64,000 bases of DNA from Mesohalobacter halotolerans (GTDB taxonomy: Bacteria > Bacteroidota > Bacteroidia > Flavobacteriales > Flavobacteriaceae): NCBI RefSeq assembly GCF_006120725.1, contig NZ_SWMU01000001.1, forward strand, positions 434,001 to 498,000, read 5' to 3'. A program made the position numbers and the translations under genes. This document shows, piece by piece, positions 11,093-22,063 of the stretch. The notes beneath the pieces were generated by a model. That model searched no databases, was not told the DNA's origin, and saw only the letters and a program-made list of their open reading frames with translations. The first letter of the stretch is position 1. Each line of letters starts with the position of its first letter.

Positions 11093-12037
11093 TCAATGAG
11101 TTTTATCATAAAACGCTTCCAAATCTTCGGGCAAACCTCCAACATGTTGCAATTTAATAGCTGCCAATTTCAATCCCATTTTTAAACATTGTTCTTGATT
11201 CAAATTTTGTGTAAAACCATATAAAAATCCGGACCAAAACGCATCACCTGCTCCAGTGGCGTCTTTGACCTCATCGATGGGTTGGGCCGGAAGATGAACG
11301 ATTTTATTTTGTTCATTTAAGTATTTTACGCCTTGACTGCCCAAGGTCAAATAAATCTTATTGAGCTGAAATTTGTTTTGAAAATAATTAAAAATCTCAT
11401 CATGACTTAACTTTTTACCTAAAAGACGCTGCACATCATCTTCACTGATTTTTAGCAGTGGATTCAACTGAAGAAATTCACCAATGACAGCTTGGGCTTC
11501 AGCTTTATCAGGCCAGATCTTAGTCGCGTAATTCAGGTCTATACTGATTTCAGTACCGAATTGTTTGGCTTTTTTGGCCGCGTTTAAAATACTGTTTTGT
11601 GCCGGTTTTTTAGACAAAGCAAAACAGGTGGTATGAAATACTTTGGCCTTTTTGAGTGTATCTTCGGTAAACTGGTTGACGTGGATTTGAAAATCAGCAC
11701 CACGATATGTAATAAATTCCGGAGTCTCTGCAGTCTTAGAGACCACGATGATAGATGTTGGTGCATCATCAATCTGTTTTAATCCATCAATTGAAAAGTT
11801 TTTAGACTGAAATTTTTTAAGCACAAATTCACCTAAACCATCTTTTCCAATACTACCCACAAATCTGACGTTTAAGTTCAAATCATTAAGATTGAAAGCC
11901 ACGTTGGCTGGTGAGCCACCCAGAAACCGTTGAAAATCCAGAGTTTCAGATAAAGGAGAATCCGACTGTTGCCCGATCATATCGATTAAAATTTCGCCCG
12001 TACTGATGACATCTAAAGGTTTTTCAGTCCAATCCAT
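11093..12037 (-). CDS. PfkB-family sugar kinase, probably fructokinase
   Basis: A 314-residue ribokinase-fold kinase. N-terminal signature G-G-S-P-A-N-V-A-F-N-L; C-terminal signature D-A-T-G-A-G-D-A-F-W-S-G-F with the catalytic Asp in G-A-G-D. The G-E-I-L-I-D-M-I start and L-G-G-S-P-A-N segment are fructokinase-like. ATG 12037 fits the family N-terminus; a longer reading to 12094 would run further into the preceding gene. It overlaps the glycosidase gene by 25 bases, suggesting coupled translation. With an upstream invertase-like enzyme it would phosphorylate the released fructose; that link is inferred. Confidence 0.88.
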   Translation of the reverse strand: MDWTEKPLDVISTGEILIDMIGQQSDSPLSETLDFQRFLGGSPANVAFNLNDLNLNVRFVGSIGKDGLGEFVLKKFQSKNFSIDGLKQIDDAPTSIIVVSKTAETPEFITYRGADFQIHVNQFTEDTLKKAKVFHTTCFALSKKPAQNSILNAAKKAKQFGTEISIDLNYATKIWPDKAEAQAVIGEFLQLNPLLKISEDDVQRLLGKKLSHDEIFNYFQNKFQLNKIYLTLGSQGVKYLNEQNKIVHLPAQPIDEVKDATGAGDAFWSGFLYGFTQNLNQEQCLKMGLKLAAIKLQHVGGLPEDLEAFYDKTH

Positions 12038-13203
12038 TGTTTTCCGTTTAAAAATTGCGTTAACATTATCGTGGCAGCCGCACTCCAAGTACAATATTTT
12101 ACGCCGTTTGGTTCTTTAGTTTTAGAATCGAAGTTTTCATAAAAGCCCCAATTGGCTTTGGCGTTTAGCGTACTGATTTGCTCTAAAACTTTGTTTGCTT
12201 CTTCGTTTTGATTTTGTTGGCAAAGTCCAATACCGTAAAACCCATTCACCATAGGCCAGGTTCCGCCATTATGAAACTGGTAAGGGTAATTTCTAAATGC
12301 ATACTTGCAATTATTGGTCAACAAATCCCAGTCTTTATCGCTCTCTTGAATTACCGGCCAAAATGCAGGTAGTGATTTCAATGCTAACTTATTTTTTAGG
12401 GCATTGCAATACTCCAGCAACAGTTTGTGGTCATTGTTGTCTCCAATATCCAGCATTAAGATGAGGCTGTTGGCGAAAGCATCGAACTGAGTTTGATAAC
12501 CCCCCGGCTCAAGAGTGGCGACCCAGTAATCAAGTTGCTCTAATTGCTTATAGGCCTTAGGGTGATATACTTTTTCTGAAGTTTGTCGCTTTTTATAGTT
12601 GATGTTGATTTTGTTCAGGATTGTATCGTGTTTATCTTTCAATGCCTGATCATCTTCAAAATGCAAAACACAACGTATCGCCCAAACTCTTAAAAGCTGG
12701 TCGTAGAGAATAAAACCTTGTGTCGGATACTCGTCAGCCCAATTGCCACTTCGTGGCACGTACATCAAGTCGCCATGATTGAATTCCCAGGCCTGCATAA
12801 GTTTCAGGCATTTATAAATCGCAGATTTATGTTGTTTAAAAAAAGTGATGTCGTTACTGAGATGCGCATATTGACAAATTCCAATTACAAACCAGGCCAA
12901 TGTATCTACGCGACCGGCTAATCCACCAAAACTCACTTCACCGGTTTCACAATCTACATTAGATGGAATATTACCCATCTCATGTTGGTGTTTGGCTAAG
13001 GTTTCTAGGGTCGCTTTCATGGTGTTGACCAAACCCTCATCACCATCGAGTAGTGCAGCCAACCCACAAATTACGCCATCGCGAGTCCAGATTCGCTTAT
13101 AGTTGGCTACATCATCAATTCCGGCCAAAAAACCATTTGAGGTTTGGGCTTTTTGGATTAGGTTTTTGGCGTTTTGGTAGGCCTGTTTTTGTATATAGTC
13201 CAT
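12013..13203 (-). CDS. Six-hairpin glycosidase, probably GH100-like invertase
   Basis: A 396-residue protein without a signal peptide, so cytoplasmic. It has the all-helical (alpha/alpha)6 pattern: W-T-R-D-G-V-I, G-R-V-D-T-L-A-W-F-V-I-G, R-S-G-N-W-A-D-E-Y, F-H-N-G-G-T-W-P-M-V-N-G-F and C-T-W-S-A-A-A. The R-D-G and N-W-A-D-E segments look like the acidic active site of neutral invertase and glycogen-debranching relatives. Sucrose hydrolysis is favoured because a fructokinase-like gene overlaps its 3' end; an amylo-alpha-1,6-glucosidase-type role is the alternative. It starts 3 bases after the giant A2M-like gene, so they may share a transcript. Confidence 0.75.
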   Translation of the reverse strand: MDYIQKQAYQNAKNLIQKAQTSNGFLAGIDDVANYKRIWTRDGVICGLAALLDGDEGLVNTMKATLETLAKHQHEMGNIPSNVDCETGEVSFGGLAGRVDTLAWFVIGICQYAHLSNDITFFKQHKSAIYKCLKLMQAWEFNHGDLMYVPRSGNWADEYPTQGFILYDQLLRVWAIRCVLHFEDDQALKDKHDTILNKININYKKRQTSEKVYHPKAYKQLEQLDYWVATLEPGGYQTQFDAFANSLILMLDIGDNNDHKLLLEYCNALKNKLALKSLPAFWPVIQESDKDWDLLTNNCKYAFRNYPYQFHNGGTWPMVNGFYGIGLCQQNQNEEANKVLEQISTLNAKANWGFYENFDSKTKEPNGVKYCTWSAAATIMLTQFLNGKQWIGLKNL

Positions 13204-13206
13204 AAG

Positions 13207-16200
13207 TTATTTGACATTTATGATTTTCAAACCTTCGTGGGCATAAAAAGTCGGGAAATACATCAGTGATATTTTTGCAGGATTGAGACTATATCGTCCG
13301 GAATATTTAGCGATTAAAGGTATTTCAAAACTGTATTCTCCAGCTTTTAATACTGAGCAAAAGATAGTGGTTTGGTGTTCATAATATTCTCGATGATCTT
13401 CTAAGCCATATTGAACAGGTTTTGATGTATAATCAAATCCCCCGGGAATGGGAACGTTAAGCAAGACATACTTTGCCTCTTTATCTACTTTGATATCAAC
13501 TTTTAATATGACCTCATCGCCATTTTTAACCATCGAATAGCTCTGGTTTTTAAAGCGGGTTTTTATTTCAAAATCATCTTTAAAGTTTGAAGGATCACTT
13601 TCCCAATAACTTTGATACGCACTGATATAAATGGGCAAATTGCCGGTATTGGTCAAACTTAAGTCTCCGGTTTCAAGCTGGGTTTGTAATGGAAAATCAG
13701 TCTGAGTTATCGCATTTAGATTTAAAGTTGCTTTAGCTTTCGAAGCAGATGTCTTAGGAAGAATATCCGGTAAAATTTCTTCAAGCACATTGGTAATTTC
13801 ATAAGTATTGATGAGTACATTTTGTTGTCTGGAGCTGACTAGATAGCGTCTTATCTTTGGCAATCTTTTATCTGTTGATTTTACTGACTTAATAAGCTTG
13901 TAAGCCATCAAAGTATTTTGAATCGAATTTTGATAAACCAGAATTGACTTATATTTTTCTTTGGCTTCAAAATAAACATTATCAAAAATATCTTCTTTTT
14001 GATAATTGTTTAGAAATTCAATATCAGGAATAATATCCAAATTGAGAAGCGCTAGACTTAATTTGAGTTTGTTATGAAAATCGGTTTTGGAGTCTTGAAT
14101 TTCTTCTTTTATACTTCTCACAACATTTGGATAAACACTTTCGCCAAGTAAACTCAAACTCAATATGATATCTGCTTTTTGTGAAGATTTATCTGATTTA
14201 TAATATTGATTTTTAAAATAAATTACAGTTTTTTCTATATTAAATTTGGTTTTATACCCCATGTTTTCGGCTTTAAGCATAGCTTTAATAACATGTTGAC
14301 TGATCCAAAAACTTGTAAATTCAGAAGATTTCCACCAGCCCCAAAGGCCATTGTCTTGTTTGTTTTTATCGAGTTTTTTGATAATTTTCTTGATGGTTTT
14401 ATCCTCATCGAAGTCTTTATTGAGATGAGCATAAATTTCCTTTTTAGCCAATAACATATGCAGCTTTGAGGCCAGTTGTTCATTGCACTCATAAGTATAA
14501 TTCACCACATCTTGAATGTCTTTTTGCAGTAATTCTAAAAGATTAGATTCTGCATAGAACTCAACTTGGCCCAAATCTTTATCAAAATGATGCTTGAGAG
14601 TATCACCGGGTTCTAAGATTTTAAATATACCTTTTTGCAGCTCTACACCTTTTTTTAATACCGGAATATCTCGTTTTTCACCATCGAAATACTCCGAATG
14701 TTTTTGATTGAGCTTAAAAGTTAATTGCAGATTGTCTTTTTTAGCTTTTATTTTTAGGGTGTCAATTGTGGCATTGATGCTTTCGTGGTTTTTGGCAAAA
14801 ACTCTTCTGTCATCAACCTCTAAAGCGGTTTCTATAGCTAAGGTGTCTGCAGTGTAATTCAGGGCTTTTCCTATGAGGTGAGCATTGTCGCCTTCTATTA
14901 AAAATTTTGGCGTAAACAATCTGGCAGATAAAGGTTTGTAGGATTTGGTAAAAGATTGATACTTCCCTTTTTGACGTTTGGCATTCATAGCGATAACTAT
15001 ATTTTGCCAATTAGTGATATCATCCGGATAGGTGATTTCAAAAGCGGCTTCACCATTATTATCTGTGCGCAAAGTAGGTTGCCAATAGGCTACGTCGGAA
15101 AAATTGTTTCTAATGCTTGAAGCAGCTTGATTTTCTGCATAAAACTCTTCTGTAAATGCCGGATCTTTTTGTAGAGCATCATCAGAACCACTCACTGTAG
15201 TTATCACAACCACGCCATTAGCACCGCGATTGCCGTAAACAGAAGTTGCTGCTACATCTTTTAAAACGCGTAAAGATGCGATGTTATCTGAAGATAATTC
15301 TCTGAATTCACCCTCACTTATGGGCATACCGTCTATAACGTATAGAGGTTCTTCATTTGACATAACCGATGTTCGACCTCTAATAATAACGGTAGCCGAG
15401 CTTCCGGGTTGACCATTAGTATTTGAAATCCTTATACCTGCAACTTTACCATTTAAAACCGTATGAATATCTTTTGATAAAAAATTTAAAATCTTATTAC
15501 TGTCATAATATTCTATGGATTCGAAACTATTCATGGTTTCTATTGGTCTAGAAGTGGTATTTATGGTAGCCGAAGCATATGAAGTTACCACAACCTCATC
15601 AAGGTGATTGAATTCAGGTTTTAATGTAATATCGTTAAATTTATAAGCTGGTTTTTCAAGAGTTTTAAAACCAACATAAGAAAAAATCAAGTGACTTTTG
15701 GTATTTGGGAGTTTTAAGGTATAATTTCCATCAAAATCGGTTTGTGTGCCTATGCTCGTGCCTTTTACAATCACATTTACTCCTGGAATAGGCAACCCAT
15801 CCTCATCTTTGACAACACCACTCACAAATTTTCCGGGTCCAAAATATTGTTCGTTTTTCTTATAAGTTGTTTTTAAACGCTCAAAATGTTCTTTGACTAA
15901 TTTTTTTGAAACACTTTTTAAGCTGTATTCCTCTATAATCTCATTCAAAGCTGAACTGAAAAAATCTTTAGGATACAATTCCGGTTCATCAAATTTTACA
16001 ACATTTAGACCGTTAGGCTTGAGTTGAATATTGTCTAAAACTTGATAACTAAAATCATCAAACAATAAAATTGCACGATGTTTACCCGGTCTTAATTGAT
16101 GTATATTTTGTTGTAAACCCGGATATAATCTTAAGCTGTCGTTTTGGGTATTTACTACAATAGTGTTGAGCACAAATTTTTCTGGATTTGGGTTTTTATC

Positions 16201-19176
16201 TATCAAACGCAATTCTGCATAACCTGCTGTGGTTCTGTAAGGATATCTTTTATAGCTTTTTTGCTTTCTGTTTTTAGCGTTTTGTAGTCGCCAGACATTA
16301 TGGATATAGTTTAAGGTGATCACATCTTCACTTACTTCATGATTGGATATATAAGACGAAAATTCTGTGGGTAGAATTTCTATAGGATAAGACTTTAATT
16401 TTAAAAATTTTTCATTAAATCGATAATTGAAGCCCGGCTCATGATGAATATTATAACTCAAACTGTCTAAAGTTTTAAATAAAAACCTATCATAAACCGG
16501 TCCTGTAAATTGTTTATAATAATTTCCTCTATATCTTCTTTCTCCCACACCTAGCAGGAAATATTGATTTCGAGATTTGATGTAAGCTTGAAAATTACCC
16601 CGATGTTTATCATAAAGCAATATACGAGGATAGAGTTGTTTTTTTTCTAAAGTTGTCCAAGTAGGTGTGGTTTCTTCAACCTGAATTTGAGGATGCAATC
16701 CCTTTTCATCCAGACTAAAAATGGTTTTACGATTTGGCTTAAAATATAAACTATCAAGTTTATAAATTTTATTTGTGGTTCGAAGTTTAATATTATGATA
16801 ACCGCTATCAATAGGAAAACTATAACTTTGTTGATGTGAATTCCATGAAAAATAAACCGGGTTGTTGTTTACGTAAATGACATGAACGGCTTCTTGTTTA
16901 CCTTCTTTCATGACAAACGGTGCAAACTGGGTGATGCTATCATTGGCTTCAACATCCGTTTTGAAAAATTCCTGAGGATACATAAAGTCGTAGTAAATGA
17001 TGCTATCCAAATGCGCTTTGGTTTTCCAATTATGATAATCCAAGGGTTGCACTTGACGATCAAAAACATCTGTATGAAATTCAAAGTTGTTGATAGCTTT
17101 TCTGGTTTTACGTTTTTTAAATAACCTTGGAAGGCGAGGAAAATTATAATTGAATTTTTTAGATAAACCAAAAGCCGTCACGTCTGCATTTTCCACCGGT
17201 TGGTTTTTGTAATTGGTAATTCTAACTTTTATAGTGTCTGTTTTTCCGGGATAAATCAATTGCGGTTCTTCAACACTAATATTTAATAATTGCTCATCCA
17301 ATGAAATACCATAAGATTTTTTAACTTCTTTTCCTGCCCATATATAAGTTAAACTCACATAATAATTTTGCTTGTTTTTAGCTTGAAATTTATAATCCAG
17401 TTGTTTTTTGTGCCCCCTCTTAATTTCTTTGTTTACCTTATATATGTAATATATGATTTCTAAACCTCTTGGATTATTCAGCTTGATATAAATAGAATCT
17501 TGTGTGCGTTTAGTGCTTAAATTGATTTCATCCGAATAGTCGAAAAGTTTGATGGCTTTAGAAAGACTATCCGTTTCAATATAGTATTCTGAATAATAAG
17601 GATTGATGTCAATTTTACAAGGTAATTCTAATGAAGTCAGGCTATCTATGTTACCAAACCGGTCTTTGATGTAGAGTTTGGCTGCTTTACTTTTGATTTC
17701 ACCATTTTCAGTATAATCAAAATGTATGCTATCTGTTTGCACGTCGGTTTGTAAGGTTTTGTTTTGATAAACAAAAGAAAAAGGTTTGGAGTTAGAAACC
17801 ATTTCATTATCAGAAGTTTTGATTTTTGCCTCTAGGTAAAAATCTATATTGGCTTTTGGATAAATATCAGGTGGAATACTGATTTTGGTTTTTGAACGTG
17901 GTTTGAGTTTAGTTCTAAATCGCCATAAGGTATCAGGAATAAAAAGACGGTCTTCAAAGCTTCTGACATTATCTTGAGCGATAAGGGCCAAGTCTACGCG
18001 TGCATCCATCAGTTTTAAATCATTTTCATCGGTGGCATTGATATAAATATCCAATGAATCTCCTTTGTATTGGGTTTCCGTTTTGGCAGAAATCTCAACT
18101 TTATTGCCTTTAAGCGTATAGTCTTCATAATAAAATCGCGTTTCTGCAACTGTATTGGATTTTTTGTCTTTCAGGCCTATTCTATAAGGATTATCTAATT
18201 TTAAATCCAGAGAATCTTCTAGTGTCATGGCAAATGTATAACCTCCTTTGGCATAAGGTTTAATCTCGTCTATTATGATATATTTTCGGTTTTGGTATAA
18301 ATAGACTTGTAATGCTTCATCGATTGGTTTATAGCTTTTATTCAAGACATAAGCTTTGAACCTCAAACTATCTCCAGGTCTATATTTTGGTTTATCAGTT
18401 ACCGCGTAATGAAAAGTTTTACGAGTTTTACAATAATCCTGGTCAAACAGACAAGCTGTGCTTTCATATAATTTAACAAAAAATCTTTTGAGTTTATATA
18501 TATTGCCTCGTGCGTAATGGTTTTTAATAGATTTGTAAGCATCTGCTGGTAGGTCTATTATAAATTTTACGGGTTTCCACACATATTTTACCGGGGTTTG
18601 GTATAGTGTTGCATTGAGTTTTCTTTTAAAAAAACTTTGGCTGTCAGATTTTACAAGGTCATAATAAAAGGTTTGTCCAGCATGATTTAAGCTCAATAAA
18701 CCGTCTTTATAACTCTTTTTGATTCGATAGGTTTGGGTTGATTTATCAAACTTTACACGACGTTTATCCAATTTTAACTCAGCGTTTTCAATAGCGTTCC
18801 CGTTTAAATCTAATACTCGTAAATTCAAATCGGTATCATTGTTTAAAATAAACACGTTAAAATCTTGAACAGCAGTGAGAGCCGTTTCTGTCTTATTTCC
18901 ATTGATTCTTACTTTGAGGTAATAGCCGGGTTTTAAGGGCTTATGGTAAGTTTTATCAAACTCGAAAGAATCGATGAGTTGGTTGAAATATTCGGGTTTA
19001 TATCTGGGATTTTGGTTTCTAAAAAAGGATTTTGCTTGTTGGTCTGAAATTTTATAGATGTAAGCATATCGTCCAAAAGCTTTGCTTTCCAAAAGATTTT
19101 GAGAAGGAGACTGATAAGCAATCAGTAACGTAAAAACGAAAAAAAAAGCATTTGAAGCAGTCTTGAGGTTTGGCAT
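13207..19176 (-). CDS. Alpha-2-macroglobulin-like protein with an embedded SusC-type regulatory and plug module
   Basis: A 1989-residue exported protein with an N-terminal signal peptide (about 1-25). Order of parts: beta-sandwich domains including an MG2 block (K-P-K-Y-R-P-G-D-S-L-R-F near 259); at about 1117-1190 a carboxypeptidase-regulatory domain (S-G-V-V-K-D...G-V-N-V-I-V-K-G-T...D-F-D-G-N-Y); at about 1190-1327 a SusC-type plug (D-E-V-V-V-T, Y-V-I-D-G-M-P, L-K-D-V-A-A-T-S-V-Y-G-N-R-G-A-N-G-V-V-V-I-T-T); then the A2M block (W-Q-P-T-L-R-T-D-N-N-G) and C1564-N-E-Q, which fits the C-x-E-Q thioester motif; finally MG-type domains. There is no beta-barrel. Bacterial A2Ms trap proteases in the envelope. 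What the plug does here is unknown. Confidence 0.9.
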   Translation of the reverse strand: MPNLKTASNAFFFVFTLLIAYQSPSQNLLESKAFGRYAYIYKISDQQAKSFFRNQNPRYKPEYFNQLIDSFEFDKTYHKPLKPGYYLKVRINGNKTETALTAVQDFNVFILNNDTDLNLRVLDLNGNAIENAELKLDKRRVKFDKSTQTYRIKKSYKDGLLSLNHAGQTFYYDLVKSDSQSFFKRKLNATLYQTPVKYVWKPVKFIIDLPADAYKSIKNHYARGNIYKLKRFFVKLYESTACLFDQDYCKTRKTFHYAVTDKPKYRPGDSLRFKAYVLNKSYKPIDEALQVYLYQNRKYIIIDEIKPYAKGGYTFAMTLEDSLDLKLDNPYRIGLKDKKSNTVAETRFYYEDYTLKGNKVEISAKTETQYKGDSLDIYINATDENDLKLMDARVDLALIAQDNVRSFEDRLFIPDTLWRFRTKLKPRSKTKISIPPDIYPKANIDFYLEAKIKTSDNEMVSNSKPFSFVYQNKTLQTDVQTDSIHFDYTENGEIKSKAAKLYIKDRFGNIDSLTSLELPCKIDINPYYSEYYIETDSLSKAIKLFDYSDEINLSTKRTQDSIYIKLNNPRGLEIIYYIYKVNKEIKRGHKKQLDYKFQAKNKQNYYVSLTYIWAGKEVKKSYGISLDEQLLNISVEEPQLIYPGKTDTIKVRITNYKNQPVENADVTAFGLSKKFNYNFPRLPRLFKKRKTRKAINNFEFHTDVFDRQVQPLDYHNWKTKAHLDSIIYYDFMYPQEFFKTDVEANDSITQFAPFVMKEGKQEAVHVIYVNNNPVYFSWNSHQQSYSFPIDSGYHNIKLRTTNKIYKLDSLYFKPNRKTIFSLDEKGLHPQIQVEETTPTWTTLEKKQLYPRILLYDKHRGNFQAYIKSRNQYFLLGVGERRYRGNYYKQFTGPVYDRFLFKTLDSLSYNIHHEPGFNYRFNEKFLKLKSYPIEILPTEFSSYISNHEVSEDVITLNYIHNVWRLQNAKNRKQKSYKRYPYRTTAGYAELRLIDKNPNPEKFVLNTIVVNTQNDSLRLYPGLQQNIHQLRPGKHRAILLFDDFSYQVLDNIQLKPNGLNVVKFDEPELYPKDFFSSALNEIIEEYSLKSVSKKLVKEHFERLKTTYKKNEQYFGPGKFVSGVVKDEDGLPIPGVNVIVKGTSIGTQTDFDGNYTLKLPNTKSHLIFSYVGFKTLEKPAYKFNDITLKPEFNHLDEVVVTSYASATINTTSRPIETMNSFESIEYYDSNKILNFLSKDIHTVLNGKVAGIRISNTNGQPGSSATVIIRGRTSVMSNEEPLYVIDGMPISEGEFRELSSDNIASLRVLKDVAATSVYGNRGANGVVVITTVSGSDDALQKDPAFTEEFYAENQAASSIRNNFSDVAYWQPTLRTDNNGEAAFEITYPDDITNWQNIVIAMNAKRQKGKYQSFTKSYKPLSARLFTPKFLIEGDNAHLIGKALNYTADTLAIETALEVDDRRVFAKNHESINATIDTLKIKAKKDNLQLTFKLNQKHSEYFDGEKRDIPVLKKGVELQKGIFKILEPGDTLKHHFDKDLGQVEFYAESNLLELLQKDIQDVVNYTYECNEQLASKLHMLLAKKEIYAHLNKDFDEDKTIKKIIKKLDKNKQDNGLWGWWKSSEFTSFWISQHVIKAMLKAENMGYKTKFNIEKTVIYFKNQYYKSDKSSQKADIILSLSLLGESVYPNVVRSIKEEIQDSKTDFHNKLKLSLALLNLDIIPDIEFLNNYQKEDIFDNVYFEAKEKYKSILVYQNSIQNTLMAYKLIKSVKSTDKRLPKIRRYLVSSRQQNVLINTYEITNVLEEILPDILPKTSASKAKATLNLNAITQTDFPLQTQLETGDLSLTNTGNLPIYISAYQSYWESDPSNFKDDFEIKTRFKNQSYSMVKNGDEVILKVDIKVDKEAKYVLLNVPIPGGFDYTSKPVQYGLEDHREYYEHQTTIFCSVLKAGEYSFEIPLIAKYSGRYSLNPAKISLMYFPTFYAHEGLKIINVK

Positions 19177-19447: not shown

Positions 19448-22063
19448 TTGACGTCAAATTTTTATGGCTTGAAATCTAATATTACTTCTTTTTTTACCTT
19501 ATTAATTCTGGTTGTACTAATTACGGCATGTTCTACACAAAAAAATAAGTTCATGAATCGGAATTGGCACGCCATGAATACGTATTACAATACGATTTAC
19601 CATGGCAATTTGGCGGTTGAGAATGGTATTCAAACTGTAGTAGCGGAGTATCCTGAAAATTATTGGCATATCCTTCCGGTTGAACGCATGCAGGAGAAAC
19701 CTCCAACCACAGATATTTTTGAGCCTGATGCCCAAAAAACAGAAGCTAAAAACCCTGATTTTAAAAGAGCTGAAAAAAAAGCGACCAAAGCCATTCAAAA
19801 GCATTCTATGTATATTGAGGGAGAGGAATACAATTATCAAATTGACGAAGCCTTTATTCTATTAGGCAAAGCCAGATATTATAGTCACCGTTATATACAA
19901 GCAAAAGATGCCTTTCGCTATGTTTTAAATCATTATCCTGAAAGTACTGGTATTGTAGAGGCTAAAATTTGGAGTGAAAAGGTTAATATGCGTCTCAAAT
20001 ATTATGAATTGGCACTCAAAAATCTGCTCAAAATTCGTTCTGAATATCCTGAATTGTCTGAAGAAGAACAAACTCACCTTAATAGCATTTTAGCTGAAGC
20101 TCATATCCTGAATGACAATTACAACAAAGCGATTGGCCCACTAAATCAAGCCATTTTTTACGCTAAGGACAACAATAAAAAAGGACGATTTTTATACATC
20201 AAAGCTCAACTTTTTGATGGGCTTAACCAAGTCGACAGCGCCAATTACACTTATCAAAAAGTAATTGAACTCAATCGTAAATCACCACGGGATTATATGA
20301 TTCACGCCAAGCTAGAGCAACTTAAAAACATAGACCTTGATACAGTGAGTTATGCTTATATGAAAACCCAATATGGTGAATTGATTGAAAATCGAGAAAA
20401 TCGACCATTTTTAGATTTTATTTACTTTGATTTTGCTGAATACCACAACCAACTCGATTCAATTGACTTAGCTATAGATTATTATAATCAATCTCTAAGA
20501 AGGCAACCTGAAGATAAATATTTATATTCTAGAGATTATTTAAGATTGGCAAAAATTTATTTTGACCAAAACAACTATAAAACCGCGGGAGCCTATTACG
20601 ATAGTACGCTGACGCATATTGATAAAAGTAAGCGTGAATATAGAATAATTGCAAAAAAACGCAAAAGCTTAGATGATGTTATTAAGTACGAGGGAATCGC
20701 TGATGAGAAAGACAGTATCATCAACTTGGTTGAAATGAATAAAGAAGAACGCTTAACTTACTTTAAAGATCATATCGAAACCCTAAAAGAAGAAGCAAAA
20801 AGTGTATTTGCTCAACAGTCGGCATCTCAAAAAGCTTTAAATTCCTCTAACAAAGGATTTAAAGGAGCAAATATGAATACTCGAAGCAGACTTGGCGCAT
20901 CCAATGCTGGGAAAAGTAATACCGGGACTTCAGGAGCAGCTAGTTTTTACTTCTACAATTCAAATCAGGCTCAAAGGGGTTTGCTGAGCTTTAAACAAAC
21001 TTGGGGTGATATAGAGTTAACCGACAATTGGAAATATGGCGGCAAAACAAACGCAAGCTCAAAAACTGAAGAAAGCGAAAAAGAAAAAGACCCTTTTGCT
21101 AACGACCCAAAATATCAACCAGAAACATATATTTCACAAATCCCGAGTGAAAAAAATATAATTGATAGTCTTTGGGTAGATCGCAACTTTGCTTATTATC
21201 AATTAGGGGTTATTTATAAAGAGAAATTTAAAGAATACGAATTGTCAAAAAACAGGTTTGAAGATCTTCTCAAGAGTAATCCTGAAGATCGATTGATTTT
21301 GCCTAGCATTTACAACTTATATTTAATTGCAGAGGCTCAAGGCGATAATGTGGCTAAAAATAAATGGAAAAATAAAATTTTGACCGAACACCCAGAAAGT
21401 GAATATGCCGCGTTGCTATTAAATCCTCAAAAATTTAAAGACAGCAAAAACAACCCCTTAAATATATACAATAAGCTTTATAAAGCTTATGAAAATCAAG
21501 AATATGAATATGTTATCCAACAAGCTGATCAATATGCAAAACAATTGATAGGCCGACCTATTACGCCAAAGTTTGAATTGTTAAGGGCTTTTGCTGTAGC
21601 TAAAGTAGACGGTGTTGAAGCTTATAAAAAAGCATTAAATTACGTGGCGCTGACCTATCCACAGTCAGATGAAGGCAAATATGCGCTAGGACGTTATAAC
21701 GAACTCAAACAAAATGTGAGGGGTCAAAAATTTAAGCCGGACACAGATCAAGACAGTTATAAGCTTGTGTATTATTTTGAAGATCGCGATCGGCAAAAAA
21801 GTTTTGAAACTGAACTCGAAACAGCTTTTGAGACCTTAGATTATGACTTTAAAATTACAGATGAGGTGTATACAAAACGCAAAAGCTTTAAAGTTATTCA
21901 TGGCCTAAGTAGTTTATTGGGAGCTCAGGGTTTAGCTGAAATTTTGATTAAAGAAGGAGAACTTTCCAAAGATTTTAATTACTTTGCAATATCTAATGAA
22001 AATTACAGTATTGTTCAGATACACAAAAACTTAGATCAATATTTAAAACATTTAAATCAATAA
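19448..22063 (+). CDS. sprE: Type IX secretion / gliding motility lipoprotein SprE (PorW)
   Basis: SprE is a TPR lipoprotein needed for type IX secretion and gliding in flavobacteria. The 871-residue protein has lipobox L-I-T-A-C, then the typical segment N-R-N-W-H-A-M-N-T-Y-Y-N-T-I-Y-H-G-N, and TPR-like repeats through the first 450 residues (A-F-I-L-L-G-K-A-R-Y-Y, A-K-D-A-F-R-Y-V). A Ser/Asn/Gly-rich linker (about 455-500) precedes the C-terminal half. No ATG lies before the lipobox: only TTG (19448 or 19469) can start it. It is followed 2 bases later by a bactofilin gene. Confidence 0.93.
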   Translation: MTSNFYGLKSNITSFFTLLILVVLITACSTQKNKFMNRNWHAMNTYYNTIYHGNLAVENGIQTVVAEYPENYWHILPVERMQEKPPTTDIFEPDAQKTEAKNPDFKRAEKKATKAIQKHSMYIEGEEYNYQIDEAFILLGKARYYSHRYIQAKDAFRYVLNHYPESTGIVEAKIWSEKVNMRLKYYELALKNLLKIRSEYPELSEEEQTHLNSILAEAHILNDNYNKAIGPLNQAIFYAKDNNKKGRFLYIKAQLFDGLNQVDSANYTYQKVIELNRKSPRDYMIHAKLEQLKNIDLDTVSYAYMKTQYGELIENRENRPFLDFIYFDFAEYHNQLDSIDLAIDYYNQSLRRQPEDKYLYSRDYLRLAKIYFDQNNYKTAGAYYDSTLTHIDKSKREYRIIAKKRKSLDDVIKYEGIADEKDSIINLVEMNKEERLTYFKDHIETLKEEAKSVFAQQSASQKALNSSNKGFKGANMNTRSRLGASNAGKSNTGTSGAASFYFYNSNQAQRGLLSFKQTWGDIELTDNWKYGGKTNASSKTEESEKEKDPFANDPKYQPETYISQIPSEKNIIDSLWVDRNFAYYQLGVIYKEKFKEYELSKNRFEDLLKSNPEDRLILPSIYNLYLIAEAQGDNVAKNKWKNKILTEHPESEYAALLLNPQKFKDSKNNPLNIYNKLYKAYENQEYEYVIQQADQYAKQLIGRPITPKFELLRAFAVAKVDGVEAYKKALNYVALTYPQSDEGKYALGRYNELKQNVRGQKFKPDTDQDSYKLVYYFEDRDRQKSFETELETAFETLDYDFKITDEVYTKRKSFKVIHGLSSLLGAQGLAEILIKEGELSKDFNYFAISNENYSIVQIHKNLDQYLKHLNQ

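Follow-up and report, generated by a model that had tools for sequence, protein, structure and literature searches.

A Bacteroidota alpha-2-macroglobulin carrying the NTE, TonB box and plug of a SusC-type channel at its bait region, a candidate for docking on TonB

The gene at positions 13207-19176 of the analysed window (a stretch of 64,000 nucleotides of Mesohalobacter halotolerans contig NZ_SWMU01000001.1) was found to encode, in a single uninterrupted frame on the minus strand without internal stop, a protein of 1989 aa in which a bacterial alpha-2-macroglobulin is joined to the NTE, the TonB box and the plug of a SusC channel, without the barrel. Based on the features listed below and on their conservation in related proteins, we propose, with moderate confidence, that this macroglobulin is periplasmic and uses its bait region to dock on TonB.

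13207-19176, minus strand: whole gene, macroglobulin with embedded SusC NTE, TonB box and plug (1989 aa)
19102-19176, minus strand: putative N-terminal signal peptide, residues about 1-25 (assigned by eye from the sequence; no lipobox cysteine seen)
18217-18408, minus strand: MG2-like domain, residues 257-320 (Pfam, below cut-off: 24.9 bits; cut-off 32.8)
17161-17259, minus strand: putative first strands of the split bait-bearing MG domain, residues 640-672 (AlphaFold strands; tentative assignment)
15619-15831, minus strand: NTE (CarbopepD_reg_2) domain, residues 1116-1186 (Pfam, and model match to 9hfj)
15577-15603, minus strand: TonB box LDEVVVTSY, residues 1192-1200 (BT1763 comparison, conservation, box score)
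15196-15522, minus strand: SusC-type plug, residues 1219-1327 (Pfam, NCBIfam and models; SusC signature at 15196-15282)
15121-15195, minus strand: disordered linker, residues 1328-1352 (low pLDDT; about the bait position of the E. coli macroglobulin, by our own reckoning)
14830-15090, minus strand: A2M domain PF00207, residues 1363-1449 (Pfam E 1.2e-12, 48 bits, above cut-off)
14476-14487, minus strand: thioester motif CNEQ, residues 1564-1567 (by sequence pattern; CNEQ also in the other 61 rows of its clade)
13252-13533, minus strand: bMG10 domain, residues 1882-1975 (Pfam E 6e-15, 56 bits, above cut-off)

Pfam placed CarbopepD_reg_2 at residues 1118-1197 (E 3.2e-19) and Plug at residues 1219-1322 (E 1.6e-11), both above cut-off and directly upstream of PF00207, and CNEQ was found at residue 1564, downstream of the plug. 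The NCBIfam SusC/RagA model TIGR04056 (981 positions) matched residues 1118-1336 through its positions 3-212 only, with 225.7 bits against a cut-off of 368.25, as expected of an NTE and a plug that lack a barrel. At residues 1299-1327, the SusC signature TIGR04057 scored 44.1 bits, just below its cut-off of 46.2; the segment LKDVAATSVYGNRGANGVV begins at residue 1305. No barrel family was found by Pfam in the 1989-aa protein, the remainder of which is macroglobulin. The preliminary description, made from the sequence alone, had placed a carboxypeptidase-regulatory domain and a SusC-style plug within a macroglobulin, upstream of CNEQ and without a barrel, and was correct in each of these respects; the key element absent from it was the TonB box. 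In sequence searches, the best matches of the region 1116-1327 were solved SusC and RagA proteins, and a profile of the C-terminal half matched YfhM chains at 210-302, a stretch spanning the CXEQ motif. The same genome gave 24 plug matches; among the other 23 frames, the three shortest were inspected and all carried a barrel.

Among known systems, the closest on the macroglobulin side was YfhM of E. coli and Salmonella (ECAM, SaA2M), with which the protein shares the PF00207 region, bMG10, the CXEQ motif, a fold match and a putative periplasmic signal sequence. YfhM is a membrane-anchored lipoprotein, whereas no lipobox was seen by eye in the 1989-aa protein. The NTE, TonB box and plug are shared with the SusC/RagA TonB-dependent transporters (BT1763, RagA, BT3090); unlike these, the protein is barrel-less and its module lies midway within a macroglobulin. 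The PF00207 region was also similar in sequence to that of human A2M and A2ML1, and fold matches were obtained for A2M, A2ML1 and complement C5. Complement C3 to C5 carry another inserted domain, the anaphylatoxin, near the same site, but these and human A2M and A2ML1 are animal proteins without a TonB element.

Two structure models covered the module. In the first, an AlphaFold model of residues 640-1480 (mean pLDDT 74.8), the NTE was well formed and the end of the plug moderately predicted, and pLDDT was below 50 at residues 1191-1273, which include the TonB box, 1329-1346 and 1348-1360. Its Foldseek matches were animal and bacterial macroglobulins and the solved SusC NTE 9hfj (rmsd 1.3). 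The second model, of residues 1109-1342 alone, was built on an alignment of 77 sequences, 33 of them SusC. The C-terminal part of the plug was predicted with a pLDDT of 75-94, the model matched SusC and RagA chains, and the NTE superposed on 9hfj with an rmsd of 1.1. That the plug segment consists of ordinary MG repeats was ruled out at the level of the models, in which it is predicted as a SusC plug; the plug thus survived a doubt raised with the preliminary description.

According to PMC4498604, the bait region of the E. coli macroglobulin is a short disordered stretch inside MG8, of which residues 923-942 are unseen in the cleaved structure, and the thioester is freed when this region is untethered; in the 1989-aa protein, by comparison, the NTE, TonB box and plug adjoin this position. 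By our own reckoning, from a plain Bacteroidota macroglobulin aligned to the E. coli chain with a numbering offset of 39, the E. coli bait residues described there map about 20-40 residues upstream of PF00207. Their equivalent in the 1989-aa protein would be the disordered linker 1328-1352 together with the plug end that precedes it. The module, immediately before PF00207, would thus occupy the N-terminal edge of the bait position, at about the E. coli bait site.

A scan of a genome collection, using the macroglobulin half only as query, returned 59 loci in different records, all of them Bacteroidota by title. Profiles of the NTE and of the plug, which we built from 23 SusC genes in loci recruited by similarity to the 1989-aa protein, detected the module in most of the 59 loci, directly upstream of PF00207. 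Three genomes of the same genus encoded homologues of this layout, at 54, 52 and 35% identity over almost the whole length, and a fourth copy was cut by a contig end. An assembly chimera or a chance join of two genes, the first of which had been considered earlier, is therefore excluded: the same layout recurs in other assemblies, including those of the same genus. The gene is patchy in the genus, in which it was seen in 4 of 26 genomes, and is thus dispensable. In samples selected by PF00207 only and drawn from the best-scoring matches listed (every second row, 75 in all, then 59 of the rest), in which low scorers are under-represented, an NTE and/or a plug was found in 10 of the 75 and 12 of the 59 macroglobulins. 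Five rows, L003, L004, L006, L169 and L170, are duplicates of the genes L032, L033, L063, L005 and L032, respectively. The co-occurrence test with SusC genes suggested earlier has little power, as a SusC model match at E<=0.001 was present in each of the 41 sampled Bacteroidota genomes, in 23 of them above the cut-off. No report of the architecture appeared among the open-licence papers listed; domain databases may list it uncommented.

No conserved operon partner was found, with no neighbour cluster present in more than 8 of the 61 loci compared, many of them short (BLAST E 1e-15, half the length covered). Most of the neighbour clusters inspected were common mainly to Mucilaginibacter loci, and one cluster of 8 loci was composed mostly of Sphingobacterium loci, plus L051, L053 and L169. 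In the window itself, the divergent neighbour at 19448-22063 encodes PorW/SprE, a lipoprotein of type IX secretion (742.8 bits), and is probably unrelated; directly downstream lie a GH100-like (alkaline and neutral invertase) gene at 12013-13203 and then a PfkB sugar kinase gene at 11093-12094.

A backbone tree was inferred for 136 macroglobulins, with the module columns omitted and the short rows L073, L087, L105 and L140 left out. Three groups were distinguished: a clade characterized by CNEQ (62 rows, SH-aLRT 100), with 46 members carrying NTE and plug, 10 the NTE, 4 the plug and 2 neither, so that an NTE and/or a plug was kept in 60 of the 62; a second clade of 31 rows with mixed module content; and a third group of 43 rows, weakly supported (71), in which no member carried the module.

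According to PMC7782687, BT1763 requires its TonB box, DEVVVTG, for function; this box is flexible and not part of the NTE fold. By analogy, the DEVVVT that follows the NTE in the 1989-aa protein is the kind of TonB box described there as needed in BT1763. Using a matrix of 17 distinct SusC boxes, taken from SusC loci recruited by similarity to the 1989-aa protein, LDEVVVTSY scored 27.1, with a maximum of 1.2 elsewhere in the protein. Among 72 aligned modules (L005 left out), residues 1192-1200 ranked first in conservation of 204 9-mers, with 2.46 bits per column for the box, 1.63 for the NTE core and 0.76 for the linker that follows. The box ranked 5th of 204 over the 52 rows with NTE and plug (L087 left out), and 16th of 204 over the 13 NTE-only rows, with 2.52 bits against 2.33 for the NTE core and 0.79 for the following linker. 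A strict box pattern was present in 9 of the 13 NTE-only members and was missed by 9 of 53 modules with NTE and plug, several of which had near-boxes.

The distribution of the box was determined by scoring the stretch of up to 260 residues that precedes PF00207. As cut-off we took what was intended to be the 99.5% point of the control windows from these proteins, a score that 6 of the 723 reached owing to ties. In the CNEQ clade, 57 of the 61 module members reached the cut-off, the 1989-aa protein itself being uncounted (below cut-off: L055, L036, L076 and L063). In the second clade, the box was found in 8 of 11 module members (the others being L168, L134 and L113) and in 8 of 20 module-less members. 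No box was found in the 43 members of the third group, nor in four module-less rows filed under CNEQ (L105, L140, L083 and L085), of which L105 and L140 were filed there only because they appear in no clade list. In the second sample of 59 macroglobulins, among the matches listed, 10 reached the cut-off, including 4 of the 47 without NTE or plug, as against none of 308 control windows; 6 of the 12 module members fell below it (L248, L209, L239, L212, L245 and L243).

Overall, a box at the bait position was observed in 12 of 112 module-less proteins among the matches listed in both samples (8 of 65 and 4 of 47), where the control rate predicts about 1. Eight of these 112 scored above all 1031 control windows and the other four did not, again among the matches listed; in the first sample of the matches listed, 4 of the 8 module-less passes did not exceed the top-scoring control window (15.7). 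These rows are not independent: by our own reading, the module-less passes of the first sample represent about five lineages, and 3 of the 4 of the second sample belong to f5, the family of one of these lineages. Members of f5 (L129, L130, L231, L232 and L235) exhibited a TonB-box-like motif upstream of PF00207 without NTE or plug, 38-44 residues before PF00207 in L231, L232 and L235, and none of the five had a thioester motif by pattern. In L099, L093 and L085, stretches at the bait position such as LDEVIVVSERPLIEKSSTN resembled by eye the start of what we take to be Oar-type receptors, and a separate capture of a TonB box is possible in these proteins.

In the docking account that we favour, the protein has kept the macroglobulin scaffold and its thioester motif, has the NTE, TonB box and SusC-type plug at the bait region, and would be bound by TonB at the box as a channel is. 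Such binding would bring the trap to where TonB is found in the cell envelope and would transmit force to the bait region. The architecture, its recurrence, its position beside the bait site and the selective retention of the box are shown by the comparisons above; we infer the periplasmic location, from the putative signal sequence only, as well as the binding of TonB and any effect on the trap. The selective retention of the box, as judged from sequence comparison, is the main argument for TonB as partner, and positioning at TonB sites would be the least demanding version of the partnership. Against this account, some members with an NTE or a plug have no box or only a degraded one, and the gene is dispensable and patchy in the genus. 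The preliminary description had suggested that the plug might act as a docking site for TonB or for a separate barrel. Docking on TonB gained indirect support from the conserved box and from its retention in NTE-only and module-less members; the separate barrel did not.

An alternative, which we consider rather unlikely, is that the module is a structural filler or bait, in which it would act as a spacer, the disordered linkers would be the protease bait, the likeness to SusC would simply be inherited and the box would have no role. The three stretches with pLDDT below 50 (1191-1273, 1329-1346 and 1348-1360), the poor conservation of the linker after the box and the absence of the plug or NTE in some lineages are consistent with this, but the box exceeds its flanks in conservation and also occurs in proteins that have neither NTE nor plug.

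More specific than docking, and doubtful in our view, is a pulling mechanism: TonB and the proton motive force would exert tension on the bait region, thereby switching or resetting the macroglobulin without proteolysis. Force on the bait is an attractive idea because, according to PMC4498604, it is untethering of the bait that frees the thioester and activates the E. coli protein, and both a box and a pullable plug are located at the bait site. However, plug-less members have nothing obvious to unfold, and in several members with a box no thioester motif was recognised by pattern. In family f5, which lacks this motif by pattern, the box cannot serve thioester arming, and its five members thus speak against arming as the general purpose of the box.

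We find it less probable still that the module is a residue of recombination, a transient passenger left by multicopy SusC genes that recombine into a variable site of the macroglobulin. Module trees were computed on a larger set, from which 13 of 100 rows were left out, and on a smaller one, with 22 of 54 A2M and 25 of 46 SusC modules. Modules of the type found in the 1989-aa protein nested among SusC of the same genus (SH-aLRT 98 in one tree, 99/96 in another), and the L033 module was 63% identical to a same-genus SusC versus 56% to the module of the 1989-aa protein. The smaller set weakly rejected a single clade comprising all macroglobulin modules (p 0.030; such a clade occurred in 0% of 200 bootstrap trees), but the larger set did not (p 0.0855). 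These trees suggest that modules have been exchanged with SusC genes, and recombination with many such genes could maintain a functionless box-bearing sequence at a variable site. A mere passenger, however, fits poorly with the CNEQ clade, in which 60 of 62 proteins keep an NTE and/or a plug, and with the selective retention of the box; moreover, the likelihood rose above that of the free quick tree when the five same-genus modules were constrained together (p 0.79).

Docking of the plug in trans into an empty SusC barrel is very improbable: although a SusC-like fold is predicted for the C-terminal half of the plug, SusC barrels have their own plug, four lineages of the CNEQ clade keep the NTE, and mostly the box, after an apparent loss of the plug, and only 6 of 59 loci had another frame of at least 400 aa with an NTE-plug match in the flanks examined, a single one of them strong.

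The known role of TonB lies in working the channels of the outer membrane, and a barrel-less, probably periplasmic family that keeps a TonB box would widen this role; the box would, in turn, give bacterial macroglobulins a partner and a lead to their function. The recurrence of the layout across Bacteroidota suggests that some of these traps may be steered or worked by TonB. The stronger proposal, of a macroglobulin class in this phylum worked by the TonB motor, in which TonB grips the box of the bait region and, drawing on the proton motive force, moves or arms the trap, is one that we likewise consider doubtful; if true, it would mean that a protease-trap fold can be controlled by force rather than by cleavage only.

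Two further arrangements of the module were observed. In Chitinophaga dinghuensis (L062, 7340-17861), two macroglobulin genes of the module type were found in tandem, each with an NTE and a plug. Finally, L008 (G010:C1:2880866-2881474) contained a 230-aa frame with an NTE and a plug, 53% identical to the module of the 1989-aa protein, which is either a remnant or a stand-alone module.
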